From NCBI RefSeq assembly GCF_027364955.1, contig NZ_DAHXOI010000001.1, positions 62,001-126,000 of the forward strand: DNA of 64,000 bases, read 5' to 3'. The notes beneath the pieces were generated by a model. It saw only the letters and a list, made by a program, of their open reading frames with translations, had not been told where the DNA came from and made no database searches. Every line of letters starts with the position of its first letter. The first letter of the stretch is position 1. Shown here piece by piece: positions 58,040 through 64,000 of this stretch. The DNA is from Ferrimicrobium sp. Its GTDB lineage: Bacteria > Actinomycetota > Acidimicrobiia > Acidimicrobiales > Acidimicrobiaceae. A program made the translations under genes and the position numbers.

Positions 58040-59062
58040 ATGGCTCACATGTACTACGACAAGGACGCAGACCCATCCATCATTAATGGCACCCGTGTTG
58101 CCATCATCGGCTATGGTTCGCAAGGACATGCCCACGCACTGAACCTGTCCGACTCCGGCGTTAAGGTTCGTGTTGCGCTTCGCCCGGGGTCGGCCTCTGG
58201 CGATAAGGCGTGGGCTAGTGGACTCGAGGTTCTGTCGGTGCCAGAGGCGGTCGCTTGGGCGGACCTTATCATGTTTCTCGCACCCGACACGGTGCAAAAA
58301 GAGATCTACGACAACGAGGTAGCTCCACACCTTCGTCCAGGTCAAACGCTTGGCTTCGCCCATGGCTTTAACATCCGCTTCGGGGAGATCGTTCCACCTG
58401 AGGACGTAACGGTGATGATGGTGGCCCCAAAGGGCCCTGGACACCTTGTGCGCCGCACCTACGAAGAGGGTGGCGGCGTTCCGTCGCTGATCGCTGTCGC
58501 AAATGACCCACAGGGGACCGGTCACGCGCTCGCTCTCTCCTATGCATGGGGTATCGGTTCCACCAAGGCTGGCGTACTTGACACGACCTTTGCCGAAGAG
58601 ACGGAGACGGATCTCTTTGGTGAGCAGGTGGTGCTCTGTGGTGGTTTGAGCGAGCTCATCGTCGCTGGTTTCACCACGTTGGTCGAGGCTGGCTATCAGC
58701 CGGAGTCCGCCTATTTCGAGTGCCTGCACGAGATGAAGCTCATTGTCGACCTGCTTTATGAAAATGGATTAGCCGGTATGTGGTTCTCGGTCTCAGAGAC
58801 TGCGGAGTACGGGGGACTCACGCGTGGGCCACGGGTGGTGAACGAGGCGACGCGGGCAGAGATGCGACGGATTCTTGGCGAGATTCAGGATGGAACCTTT
58901 GCGCGGGAACTCATCGACGAGATGGCGGCTGGGCGTCCCCACTTCAATCAACTCCGCCAGCAGGCAAAGGACCAACCGGTCGAGCAAGTTGGCGCTACGC
59001 TGCGTGCGATGATGCCCTTCCTGTCGACGAAGTCGAAGATCACCGAGGTGTCTGGCGGTTGA
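58040..59062 (+). CDS. ilvC: Ketol-acid reductoisomerase (NADP+), class I
   Basis: 340 residues. The Rossmann motif [37 protein letters not shown] (Arg/Ser suit NADPH), the Mg-binding [18 protein letters not shown] and [15 protein letters not shown]. It isomerises and reduces acetolactate to dihydroxyisovalerate. It completes the ilvBNC trio, and ilvD lies upstream of the leader. The next gene starts one base after its stop. Confidence 0.97.
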
Positions 59063-59063
59063 C

Positions 59064-60314
59064 GTGACCCCTCTTGCCCTGCGTGCCTGGCGTAAACCAG
59101 TGTTGTGGGGGGTTGTCAGTTTGATCGTCTTCGTGGCCGTTCTTGATCGTGATCTCGACAAGGTCGTGCACTCGCTGCCTGGAGCTGCGCTCGGAGGCGG
59201 TCTGCTCTCAGCCTTCTTCGTCGCGAGTGCTATCAGCCTTGGGCAGCGCTGGAGTCGTGCGGTGGCCGTAGTGGTCGTGGTGGTCACGATCGCCTACGCA
59301 GCGGTTGCCTGGTACGCACTGCGCCACCAGGGCCTCATCCACCAAGACGTGGCACCTTGGTTGCTGCTGGCGGGTGCGCTCGCCCTCTGGATGGTTGGCC
59401 TAAACCGGTGGACGGTGGCGGGTATCGGGATCGATCTGGGCCTAGGGCTTGGGGTGTTGCTCTGGATCGTCGGAGTGGCAAGTGGCACTGCGCTGGTCAT
59501 TCAACGCGGCGTATCCCACCTGCTCATTGGAGACGGTGCCCTGGAGCGATCGGTGTTCGCGCTGTTTATCGGGATCGTTGTCCTAGTCGGGTCCCGTTGG
59601 GCGCCGCAGGTGCAACGGGCACGTGCTCTGGATGGACGTTTTGTTGAGCAGTCGTTGAGTCTATCGTCGTTGTTGCGTTATCCTGGGTTGACCCTGGGCG
59701 CGATTAGCGTTGTTCGACTGGAGACAAGGACATGGTTGCGGGTACTGCTCGTGACACTGGCACTCGTGCCGTTGGGTATCGGTCTTGCCGAGGGGCTGCT
59801 GGTGCTCGGACCGCTTGTGGCGGCCATTGGTTGTTGGCTTGGTTGGGAGTTGAGTCCCATCGCTGCGACACTCGTGTCGCCGGAGGGACTCCTCGGGGTT
59901 CTGCCGCGGACGCGCGGATCCTATGGGCGGCGTGGGTCGGTGGTGCCGGCGTTGTTGTCGAGCGTACTCGTTGTGATGGCGATCGGCATTGCCTGGCGGG
60001 TGAGCTTTCTCATCGGTTTTGGGACCGCTGTGGTCATCGCACTTGGTTGCGGTGTGGGCTTCCTTGGCGCGGGAGTCGCGCTTCGGGTGATGGCCACAGA
60101 TGTCCATCTCGCGCAAGAGCGATGGGTGAGTGGGGTGCTCGCCGTTGCGCTCGCTGGGTGTGCCCTTGCCCCGTTGGTGCAACTGAACAACGCCTTTGGG
60201 GCCCACGGACTCTTCCTCGAGTACGTGATCACGGGAACGAGCTTTTCGGTCATCATGGGAATCGTTGGTGTCTCGCTGGTCAGTTGGTGGCAGGGAGAGG
60301 TCCGTGACACCTAA
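59064..60314 (+). CDS. Polytopic membrane protein, possible permease partner of a degenerate ABC ATPase
   Basis: 416 residues, almost all hydrophobic, with about ten to eleven membrane segments in pairs of six or so separated by a charged stretch (RWAPQVQRARALDGRFVEQSLS, about 180-205) and RGSYGRRGS near 290. I recognise no permease family with confidence. The GTG start is one base after ilvC and its stop overlaps the next gene by eleven bases, so it is probably translated with the ABC-like protein that follows. The pair looks like a transporter gene pair appended to the ilv operon. Confidence 0.75.
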   Translation: MTPLALRAWRKPVLWGVVSLIVFVAVLDRDLDKVVHSLPGAALGGGLLSAFFVASAISLGQRWSRAVAVVVVVVTIAYAAVAWYALRHQGLIHQDVAPWLLLAGALALWMVGLNRWTVAGIGIDLGLGLGVLLWIVGVASGTALVIQRGVSHLLIGDGALERSVFALFIGIVVLVGSRWAPQVQRARALDGRFVEQSLSLSSLLRYPGLTLGAISVVRLETRTWLRVLLVTLALVPLGIGLAEGLLVLGPLVAAIGCWLGWELSPIAATLVSPEGLLGVLPRTRGSYGRRGSVVPALLSSVLVVMAIGIAWRVSFLIGFGTAVVIALGCGVGFLGAGVALRVMATDVHLAQERWVSGVLAVALAGCALAPLVQLNNAFGAHGLFLEYVITGTSFSVIMGIVGVSLVSWWQGEVRDT

Positions 60315-60915
60315 GACGGTGCTTGAAGTGCAGGGTTCGGTCGCCTATGGCGATGCGACGCTACGTTTAGGGACATGGAAGCTCGCTGAGGGTGAGACGA
60401 TGCTCTTGACCGGCGGCCCACCGGAGCCGGTTGTTCGGGCTTTTCTTGGCTTGGATCCCCACGCTGCGATCAGTGTCCTTGGTGCTCGAGTCGGCAGTCG
60501 GGAGGCGCGCTCCGTGCTCGGTATCGCCTTTGGGGGCTTTGTGCCTATGCACTCGCTCAAGGTGCTCGAACATCTCGCGCTAGCGGTGCGGATAGGGCCC
60601 CCTCGGCTCGGAAAGGTTCCGTCGTTTCGAGCGGTTCTTGAGGAGGTTGGCCTGCTCCCTTTGGCGAATGAACCCGCCGGTCGCCTCGACGCTAACGGTC
60701 GATTTGCGCTCTCGCTGGCGGTCATGCTTGTTCGATTGTTGCCGGTTTGGGTAGTCGTGACTCCGCCCGGGTTTGTGCCCTCCCCATCGGTGGTGGAACG
60801 CCTCAAGCAGGCTCGTGTGGTTGGTGTAGGGATCGTCATGCACTCAGACTCCGAGGCACTGCAGCTCCTTGCTCATCAGACACGTCGATTGGAGACCAAG
60901 ACCGCACAAGATTAA
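60304..60915 (+). CDS. Degenerate ABC-type ATPase-like protein (ATP-binding motifs lost)
   Basis: 203 residues laid out like an ABC nucleotide-binding domain but without its active residues. LAEGETMLLTGGPPEPVVRAFLGL takes the place of Walker A (G-GPPEPVV instead of GPxGxGKST). LDANGRFALSLAVMLVRLLP takes the place of the signature region, and VWVVVTPP replaces Walker B (LLLDEP). A MHSDSEALQLLAHQTRRLE tail matches the switch-His end of ABC ATPases. GTG 60304 (GGAGAGG before it) overlaps the membrane gene. It may be a non-hydrolysing regulatory partner. Confidence 0.6.
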   Translation: MTPKTVLEVQGSVAYGDATLRLGTWKLAEGETMLLTGGPPEPVVRAFLGLDPHAAISVLGARVGSREARSVLGIAFGGFVPMHSLKVLEHLALAVRIGPPRLGKVPSFRAVLEEVGLLPLANEPAGRLDANGRFALSLAVMLVRLLPVWVVVTPPGFVPSPSVVERLKQARVVGVGIVMHSDSEALQLLAHQTRRLETKTAQD

Positions 60916-62281: not shown

Positions 62282-62726
62282 GCTCCATCTCGGTAAAAGC
62301 GACCATGCGCCGTAACGCTTGGTAGTTGTGGGCGACCCCCTTGAAGCGGTCTTGGCGGATACGGATCTGCTCTGAGGTGGCACCCCCGAGGTAACCGAAG
62401 TGTTCGAGGACTACTTTGAGATCTGCCAGAACAGGCGCGCGTCCCAGTCCTCCTGCAATCGCCATAGCGATGGCGACTACGCCGGCCTGGATATCGGAGC
62501 GCTGTTCTGTGGGTAGGGTTTGGAGCTGGTCCGCAAGGTGTCCGTAGAGCGTGAGTGCGTAGCCTTGATCCGGGCCCGGGCGCCCGTTCAGCTGCCCCTG
62601 GGCAAGCTTGCGGCCAGTGAGCTCTGCGGGTCGATCGAGCGCCAACTCGACTGGGTTGACGGGTTCGGCCCAGAACAACGGTGCGCGTTCACCCTTACTA
62701 ATCTCGACCATGTCTGGCTGACTCAT
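62265..62726 (-). CDS. Hypothetical protein coupled to the citramalate synthase-like gene
   Basis: 153 residues, family not recognised. Mostly helical (DQGYALTLYGHLADQLQTLPTEQRSDIQAGVVAIAMAIAGGLGRAPVLADLKVVLEHFGYLG) with a C-terminal basic part, no membrane segment or leader. Its ATG overlaps the stop of the upstream gene (ATGA), so it is translated with the citramalate/isopropylmalate synthase. Its end overlaps the convergent ndh gene. Conserved in related genomes would be the test. Confidence 0.7.
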   Translation of the reverse strand: MSQPDMVEISKGERAPLFWAEPVNPVELALDRPAELTGRKLAQGQLNGRPGPDQGYALTLYGHLADQLQTLPTEQRSDIQAGVVAIAMAIAGGLGRAPVLADLKVVLEHFGYLGGATSEQIRIRQDRFKGVAHNYQALRRMVAFTEMELNLQE

Positions 62727-64000
62727 GGTGCATTCCCTTCAGTTGTGATGGTTTTCACGAGTGCGAGGACGAAGCCTTCAGTCAGTGCCGAAAACGACGC
62801 CTCGATGATGTTGGTGGAGACTCCCGTGGTCGTCCACTGGGTCTCAGTGTCGGAGAAGTCGATGAGGACCCGGACAACGGCATCGGTGCCGCTTGAGGTG
62901 TCCAGCACGCGCACCTTGTAGTCATCAAGCCCCATGGTGGCGAGAGAGGGGTAGGTGGTCTGTAGCGCCTGTCGGAGCGCCTGATCGAGTGCATGGACGG
63001 GTCCATTCCCCTCAGCGGTAGCGATGATTCGTTGGCCGTGTACCTGCACCTTCACCGTCGCTTCGGTAAGCAGATCAGGTCCGTGATAGCCGTCGGTCGT
63101 CACCCGGTAGGACTCCACATGAAAATAGGGCTGTGTCCAGCCGAGAGCATGGCGCATCAACAGTTCCAGTGAACCATCTGCGACTTCAAAGTGATATCCC
63201 TGATGTTCGAGATCCTTCAGGCGCTGCAACAGTGAGGTGGTCGCGTCGTCGGTGAGCTCGAGTCCGAGTTCCCCCGCTTTGATCAGGAGGGTTTGACGGC
63301 CTGCCATCTCTGACACGACAAAGCGACTATGGTTGCCGACGAGCTCAGGATTGATGTGTTCATAGGCATCGCTGCGCCTTGCGATGGCGCTGACATGGAG
63401 GCCGGCTTTGTGCGTGAAGGCAGATGCGCCCACATAGGGAGATTGTGGAGCGAGTGGGAGATTGGTGATCTCTGCAATGTGACGGGCGGTTGAGGTGAGG
63501 AGTTCAAGATTGTGGGGTGGGATGGTGATGATCTCCTGTTTGAGTGAGAGTGCCGCAATGATAGGGACAAGGTTGGCATTACCCGTCCTCTCTCCGTAGC
63601 CGTTGATGCACCCCTGTACCTGGCTGGCTCCGAGATCGACGGCTATGAGTGAGTTTGCTATGGCACAGCCCGAGTCGTTGTGAAAATGGACTCCGATGGG
63701 AAGCCCCGCCCGCTCGTTGACACTGCTCATGATCGTGGGAACCTCTGATGGCAGGGTTCCGCCATTGGTGTCGCAGAGCACCAGTGTGGTTGCTCCGGCC
63801 TCCTCGGCAGCAGTAAGTACCGAGAGTGCGAAGGTTGGATTGTCCTTGAAGCCGTCAAAGAAGTGCTCAGCGTCGAGCAGCACGTGGCAACCGTGGCTGG
63901 TCAAGAAGGCGACCGAATCTCGCACCATGGCAAGCGCCTCTTCGAGAGAGGTGCGAAGCGCGTGCACGACATGGTAATCCCAGGCCTTGGCGACGATGCA
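62723..64000 (-). CDS. cimA: (R)-citramalate synthase / 2-isopropylmalate synthase family, N-terminus cut by window end
   Basis: The last 425 residues of a HMGL-like acyltransferase; the frame is open to the window edge (IVAKAWDYHVVHALRTSLEE). Motifs: LLDAEHFFDGFKDNP, LVLCDTNGGTLPSEV, GVHFHNDSGCAIANSL (metal-binding His), QGCINGYGERTGNANL, FTHKAGLHVSA. The C-terminal ~130 residues (ATVKVQVHGQRIIATAEGNGPVHALDQALRQAL) are the LeuA allosteric domain. The layout matches CimA-type enzymes, which make citramalate from pyruvate for isoleucine; 2-isopropylmalate synthase is the alternative. Confidence 0.87.
   Translation of the reverse strand, partial: CIVAKAWDYHVVHALRTSLEEALAMVRDSVAFLTSHGCHVLLDAEHFFDGFKDNPTFALSVLTAAEEAGATTLVLCDTNGGTLPSEVPTIMSSVNERAGLPIGVHFHNDSGCAIANSLIAVDLGASQVQGCINGYGERTGNANLVPIIAALSLKQEIITIPPHNLELLTSTARHIAEITNLPLAPQSPYVGASAFTHKAGLHVSAIARRSDAYEHINPELVGNHSRFVVSEMAGRQTLLIKAGELGLELTDDATTSLLQRLKDLEHQGYHFEVADGSLELLMRHALGWTQPYFHVESYRVTTDGYHGPDLLTEATVKVQVHGQRIIATAEGNGPVHALDQALRQALQTTYPSLATMGLDDYKVRVLDTSSGTDAVVRVLIDFSDTETQWTTTGVSTNIIEASFSALTEGFVLALVKTITTEGNAP

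Follow-up and report, generated by a model that had tools for sequence, protein, structure and literature searches.

The accessible part of one report (PMC2704374) describes LmrA without its nucleotide-binding domain (NBD) as a secondary-active translocator, which transports substrate together with protons and is independent of ATP, and this provides a precedent for an ABC membrane domain at work without ATP. According to the available text of a second source (PMC7756269), ABC exporters commonly combine a degenerate site with a working one, and ATP binding persists at the degenerate site of some ABC proteins. The operon described here lies in a stretch of 64,000 nucleotides (the window) and places a permease-like membrane protein and a pseudo-ABC ATPase of 203 residues after ilvC. 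On our reading it resembles LmrA-MD in having an ABC membrane domain without a working NBD and without a need for ATP; LmrA-MD is a laboratory deletion, whereas here the dead NBD has been kept by nature. It resembles the degenerate-site exporters in that an ABC domain is kept despite lost catalytic residues, but these exporters, in the text available (PMC7756269), keep a second working site, whereas the only NBD of this operon is dead. A literature search that covered few subscription journals returned, among the matches listed, no description of a transporter with a single, similarly dead NBD, or of the ilvC-linked transporter of genera g3, g5 and g8 described below (g1-g8 are genus labels within the window's family, g1 being the window's genus). 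LmrA belongs to another ABC class than the window permease. What distinguishes the locus is that the sole NBD of the operon is dead, the permease has changed in step, and a working version stands at the same place in sister genera. The locus forms a natural before-and-after series for asking what remains for an ABC transporter to do once its motor is gone, and which permease motifs belong to coupling.

The pair follows a series of genes that we take to be ilvD, ilvB, ilvN and ilvC, names assigned from the protein families (Table 1). In the window, 1 nt separates the ilvC stop from the start of the membrane protein, and the membrane-protein and NBD-like frames overlap by 11 nt. The membrane protein contains 11 hydrophobic segments in a simple Kyte-Doolittle scan. 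The frame 3' of the 203-residue protein is type II NADH dehydrogenase-like, and a gene of this kind is the next one after the pair in g1, g7 and g2. Among the frames listed between 58000 and 64000 there is no second NBD in the operon.

Table 1 Features of the ilvC-linked pair in the window.
Feature	Position	Strand	Description	Evidence
ilvC	58040..59062	+	Final classical gene of the ilvD-ilvB-ilvN-ilvC series; synteny anchor	
P0001, membrane protein	59064-60314	+	Permease-like partner, 416 aa, GTG start	Frame and hydrophobic segments
P0001 residues 210-404	59691..60275	+	Still homologous to intact-pair permeases	hhalign E 2.1e-5; controls best 0.024
P0002, NBD-like protein	60304-60915	+	Pseudo-ABC ATPase, 203 aa, GTG start	Frame, alignments, predicted fold
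P0002 residues 37-46	60412..60441	+	Walker A place, GGPPEPVVRA; no GK[ST], 3 residues shorter than intact relatives	Alignments, pattern
P0002 residues 60-69	60481..60510	+	Family element GARVGSREAR, common to intact ATPases	Alignment A4
P0002 residues 85-97	60556..60594	+	Helix after former Q-loop, LKVLEHLALAVRI	Best-kept segment among those measured in g1
P0002 residues 128-137	60685..60714	+	ABC signature place, LDANGRFALS; no motif	Alignment, pattern
P0002 residues 148-157	60745..60774	+	Walker B place, VWVVVTPPGF; no Asp-Glu, D-loop after it also missing	Alignment, pattern

An AlphaFold2 model of the 203-residue protein, based on an alignment of 16 NBDs (8 degenerate and 8 intact), reached a pLDDT of 93.6 and a pTM of 0.90; since that alignment includes intact ATPases, homology already informs the model. 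A Foldseek search with this model returned 938 PDB matches at E <= 0.001. Superimposition with VIA-align was characterized by Z 20.8 and an rmsd of 2.8 over 192 residues for 4rvc (20% identity), and by Z 18.7 and an rmsd of 3.4 over 193 residues for NosF (7o0y, 22% identity). Both entries share the fold of the model and are described as ATP-binding subunits or as part of an ABC transporter. The predicted model and the PDB comparison indicate that the protein has the ABC NBD fold, and rule out an unrelated one.

Within this predicted fold, the Walker A (GxxxxGK[ST]), Walker B (Asp-Glu) and ABC signature motifs, as they are generally defined, were all absent by pattern scan and in the alignments. 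The H-loop histidine is also replaced, with Asp or Glu at the aligned position in six g1 rows, where the alignment is less sure. A Pfam and NCBIfam scan of the protein gave nothing above the curated cut-off, ABC_tran (PF00005) included; there was a weak CcmA match (E 0.0099). The g6 NBD of locus L088 reached ABC_tran at E 0.039, below the cut-off. The initial annotation had described an ABC-shaped protein without GK[ST], the Asp-Glu of Walker B or the Gln of the signature, overlapping a membrane protein of about ten segments. Fold prediction and patterns bear out the former, the fold being that of an ABC ATPase and not an unrelated one, and the 11-nt overlap and 11 segments agree with the latter.

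To place the pair among its relatives, we searched 42 genomes of the family, found ilvC in 40 and read the context in 27. The frame after ilvC encodes a membrane protein in all 27, and an NBD-like frame comes next in 26 of the 26 genomes whose contig continues; in G020 the membrane-protein gene is cut by the contig end. The ilvC-membrane protein-NBD neighbourhood is more than chance. In g3, g5 and g8, a canonical ABC ATPase occupies the position after ilvC and the membrane protein, with ABC_tran E values of 1.1e-31 and 2.6e-26 in two examples. The NBD motifs are present in 11 of 11 pairs read from these three genera and absent in 14 of 14 read from g1, g2, g4, g6 and g7; row g5_G025 was left out of the counts. 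When P0002 was used as query, the ilv-linked ATPase was the best match in 23 of the 26 g3/g5/g8 genomes, the exceptions being G013 and G039, where the match is on another contig than ilvC, and G009, which yielded no ilvC. Comparing the profiles of degenerate and intact NBDs gave E 6.3e-19, and separate comparisons with the intact NBDs gave 1e-19 for g1/g7/g2 and 2.4e-15 for g4/g6. Taken together with the shared place after ilvC, the best matches and profiles indicate that the pseudo-ATPase descends from a working ABC ATPase at the same genomic place. A chance resemblance to ABC ATPases is ruled out by synteny and by profile comparison with controls. The g3/g5/g8 transporter is thus like the window's pair in its place after ilvC, its permease-ATPase order, its homologous NBD and the homologous C-terminal half of its permease, but differs in keeping Walker A, Walker B, the signature and three permease motifs (11/11), none of which is found in the window kind (14/14).

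A metagenome assembly artefact is unlikely, because G001, a genome in a single contig, carries the degenerate pair at the same place after ilvC. A contig scan for further loci found 5, all from MAGs whose contigs have the same lengths as ones already in the sample. In G031 (g7) the degenerate pair occurs on two contigs, the end of C19 and C78 (L037, L038), each ending in the pair; this is probably a doubled contig end or a strain mixture.

Beyond the family, a profile of the intact permeases matched 64 of 248 order genomes, 58 of them outside the family. We read 21 of these 58 loci (L092-L112; L113, a weak match, was left out), and all 21 have an NBD with Walker A and B beside the permease, L105 being counted for these two motifs alone. 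Four of the 21 have ilvC within 2 kb upstream in the same orientation (L093, L094, L095, L103); L099, with two weak partial ilvC matches, was not counted. Thus, the ilv link partly predates the family. The initial annotation had raised the questions of whether the pair is conserved beside ilvC, whether any homolog keeps the Walker motifs and whether the frames decay in relatives. Conservation extends to the 27/27 and 26/26 family genomes given above, Walker motifs are kept at the same place in g3, g5 and g8 as well as in the 21/21 pairs outside the family, and frame decay was seen in none of the pairs read.

The membrane partner has changed as well. P0001 had no match above cut-off in Pfam or NCBIfam, DUF6297 (PF19814) included, and G000 contains no DUF6297 match; likewise, the membrane proteins scanned (10 in Pfam and 5 in NCBIfam) gave none above the curated cut-off, and the L095 permease reached DUF6297 at E 0.032, below it. 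A structure model of the membrane protein had a pLDDT of 46, too poor for a fold search, and the intact permease profile matched 0 chains in the PDB. Profile comparison of the g1/g7/g2 permeases with those of intact pairs nevertheless shows homology, confined to the C-terminal half (Table 1), against reversed, column-shuffled and block-shuffled controls of which the best was the one listed. The same half gave E 2.5e-7 when 9 degenerate rows were used. The g4/g6 permeases matched the intact ones at E 1.4e-11, again in the C-terminal half only, and the g1/g7/g2 permeases matched those of g4/g6 only weakly (0.0093, vs 0.23 for the best control).

Three cytosolic motifs, GxRGGPL, [DE]VRxxLL and RFAxxxRDIR, whose patterns were picked after the alignments had been inspected, occur in 11/11 family permeases with an intact NBD and in 0/14 with a degenerate one. 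In four more intact permeases (three from outside the family and that of a second pair in G030), GxRGGPL and RFAxxxRDIR are present in 4/4 and [DE]VRxxLL in 2/4. Because they were lost jointly with the NBD motifs, we infer that these permease motifs serve to couple permease and ATPase. Among 148 order genomes, DUF6297 scores above its cut-off at 3 loci, all of them also matched by the intact permease profile. This places the permease kind in or near DUF6297 and indicates that the intact permeases are related to this uncharacterised family; relatives of the intact permease match it, whereas the window permease does not. No description of DUF6297 function was found in the literature search, with its coverage of few subscription journals, and the locus draws attention to a DUF6297-related permease kind beside branched-chain amino acid genes.

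We asked whether the motifs were lost once or twice using a tree of joined IlvD, IlvB, IlvN and IlvC from 34 genomes (1695 columns, with some rows partial). The tree unites g1, g7 and g2 (support 100) and g4 and g6 (100), and joins the two groups with support 65. In an AU test on 2000 replicates, a number that the program warns is small, a single loss was acceptable (p-AU 0.71), and so were two losses if g5 is placed beside g1/g7/g2 (0.52); a single loss with g5 beside g3 was not rejected (0.080). The placement of g5 beside g4/g6 was rejected (p-AU 0.023), as was that of g5 beside g1/g7/g2 combined with g3 beside g4/g6 (p-AU 0.008). Both one motif loss and two therefore fit the ilv tree.

The segments of the pseudo-ATPase have been kept unevenly. 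Across six g1 genomes, mean pairwise identity is 97% for the helix after the former Q-loop vs 67% for the whole protein, and over g1, g7 and g2 the values are 78% vs 41%; the helix is changed in g4 and g6. In ABC proteins, this helix sits on the face turned towards the membrane domain. Thus, the docking side of the NBD seems to be kept in the g1/g7/g2 lineage. The GAxxGSxxAR element has 78% identity in g1 and 60% over g1, g7 and g2, and its residues G60, A61, G64 and R69 are invariant in the 16 NBDs of alignment A4; g4 and g6, which are outside A4, keep only part of it. The former Walker A has 49% identity in g1 and 19% over g1, g7 and g2, and over the same three genera the Walker B and H-loop places have 31% and 29% vs the overall 41%. 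In g1, the Walker B place reaches 60%, close to the mean of 67%, and the former signature segment, at 54% over g1, g7 and g2, is above the 41% mean.

Both frames are open in 14/14 degenerate pairs read, from five genera. We measured selection in g1, the other degenerate genera being represented by their open frames. In g1, dN/dS was 0.15-0.21 for the NBD, 0.14-0.21 for the membrane protein and 0.006-0.025 for ilvC (ilvN was not used in this comparison). The intact pairs of g3 and g8 gave 0.00-0.05 (NBD) and 0.04-0.09 (membrane protein), with dS mostly saturated; in the least saturated pairing, NBD dN/dS was 0.207 for the degenerate G000-G019 vs 0.050 for the intact G041-G035. Between G000 and G019, the two closest genomes, codon position 3 accounts for 21 of 33 changes in the NBD and for 43 of 69 in the membrane protein (p 3.5e-4 and 8e-7, respectively, vs one third). 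These values indicate that the pair in g1 is under purifying selection, weaker than that on working transporters. A pseudogene is rejected, with no stops or frameshifts in any of the 14 pairs read and a dN/dS in g1 that is not near 1.

The motor motifs are lost, yet both genes are open in five genera, and the pair therefore probably works without ATP. We give an even chance to its being a motorless ABC transporter, in which ATPase and permease motifs have been lost and the complex works without ATP. Elsewhere in the family, an ordinary ABC transporter, permease and ATPase, stands right after ilvC. The pseudo-ATPase would dock on the permease via its kept surface, and the dead NBD may then act as a fixed structural or gating subunit. 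The complex could be a carrier, a pore or a scaffold that uses no ATP, most likely a carrier or gated pore, through which a substrate, perhaps a branched-chain amino or keto acid, would cross the membrane down its gradient or with protons. That the proton gradient of acid-living bacteria drives the complex is speculation. More tentatively, and with confidence that stays below even, we propose that a primary ABC transporter has here been converted, in nature and for a long time, into a membrane complex independent of ATP. Its motor and coupling motifs would have gone together, the dead ATPase would have stayed on as a functional subunit, and the proton gradient may drive the complex. The joint absence of NBD and permease motifs in 14/14 pairs and their joint presence in 11/11 count for the motorless reading, together with the synteny, the descent of the NBD, its predicted fold, the purifying selection in g1, the single-contig genome G001 and the LmrA precedent. 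Counting against it, selection weaker than on intact pairs also fits a remnant, homology of the membrane protein is confined to the C-terminal half with a model of pLDDT 46, the helix kept in g1, g7 and g2 is changed in g4 and g6, the permease motif patterns were picked with the alignments in view, and the signature segment is conserved above the mean (54% vs 41% in g1, g7 and g2).

An unlikely, though serious, alternative is a membrane-bound regulator or scaffold, which would carry out no transport and would instead hold or sense, at the membrane, Ilv enzymes or a metabolite of the pathway. The gene order after ilvC, which has a 1 nt gap in the window and recurs in the 27 family genomes whose context was read, speaks for it; however, the same kind of pair stands away from ilvC in 17 of the 21 outside-family loci read, and Pfam and NCBIfam indicate no sensor domain. 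We regard it as quite unlikely that the pair is a decaying remnant, its transporter lost and both genes drifting without yet being broken. Such drift is favoured by the NBD dN/dS above that of intact pairs (0.207 vs 0.050, the two least saturated comparisons), but it sits poorly with open frames in all 14 degenerate pairs of five genera, with the codon-position bias in both genes of the two closest g1 genomes, and with the confident predicted NBD fold.

Rescue in trans, by which an active ABC ATPase from elsewhere would pair with the pseudo-ATPase or the permease and power transport, appears improbable. Exporters with one degenerate site are common, as stated in the available text of PMC7756269, each degenerate-pair genome tested has 28-41 ABC ATPase matches, and one of them, G030 (g6), carries a second pair of permease and ATPase, intact, at another locus. 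With the intact G038 NBD as query, the best match in G030 (2.2e-51, 42% identity) is part of that second pair. The best matches in G000, G018, G001, G032 and G022, however, had E values of ~1.8e-25 to ~1.5e-29, the level of ordinary ABC ATPases as given by the second-best matches in G038 (8.7e-27) and G011 (3.9e-27). Thus, five of the six genomes tested are without a close copy of the intact NBD that could replace it, and the conserved cytosolic motifs of the permease have been lost as well. A nucleotide sensor, whose pocket would bind nucleotide in an unusual way and gate the permease, is very improbable: the predicted fold is intact and some degenerate ABC sites bind ATP (available text of PMC7756269), but g1 has a P-loop shortened by 3 residues, and identity over g1, g7 and g2 is low at the former Walker A, Walker B and H-loop places (19%, 31% and 29% vs 41%).

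The second pair of G030 (L129:3952-6347, contig G030:C131) lies away from ilvC and has the Walker motifs, the signature and all three permease motifs intact; the same g6 genome has a degenerate pair. The surroundings of the pair also vary between genera. In g4 and g6 (L085-L088), a frame that by eye is PadR-type regulator-like follows the degenerate pair in place of the NADH dehydrogenase-like gene of g1, g7 and g2. Beyond the intact pairs of L093 and L103, a frame that by eye is phosphoserine aminotransferase-like lies on the opposite strand. A leuA-like gene on the minus strand of the window (62723-63967) is matched at >70% identity by the gene in the corresponding position of g1 and g7, and in the contexts read from g3, g4, g6 and g8 a leuA-like gene near the locus has only ~29-31% identity to the window's copy.
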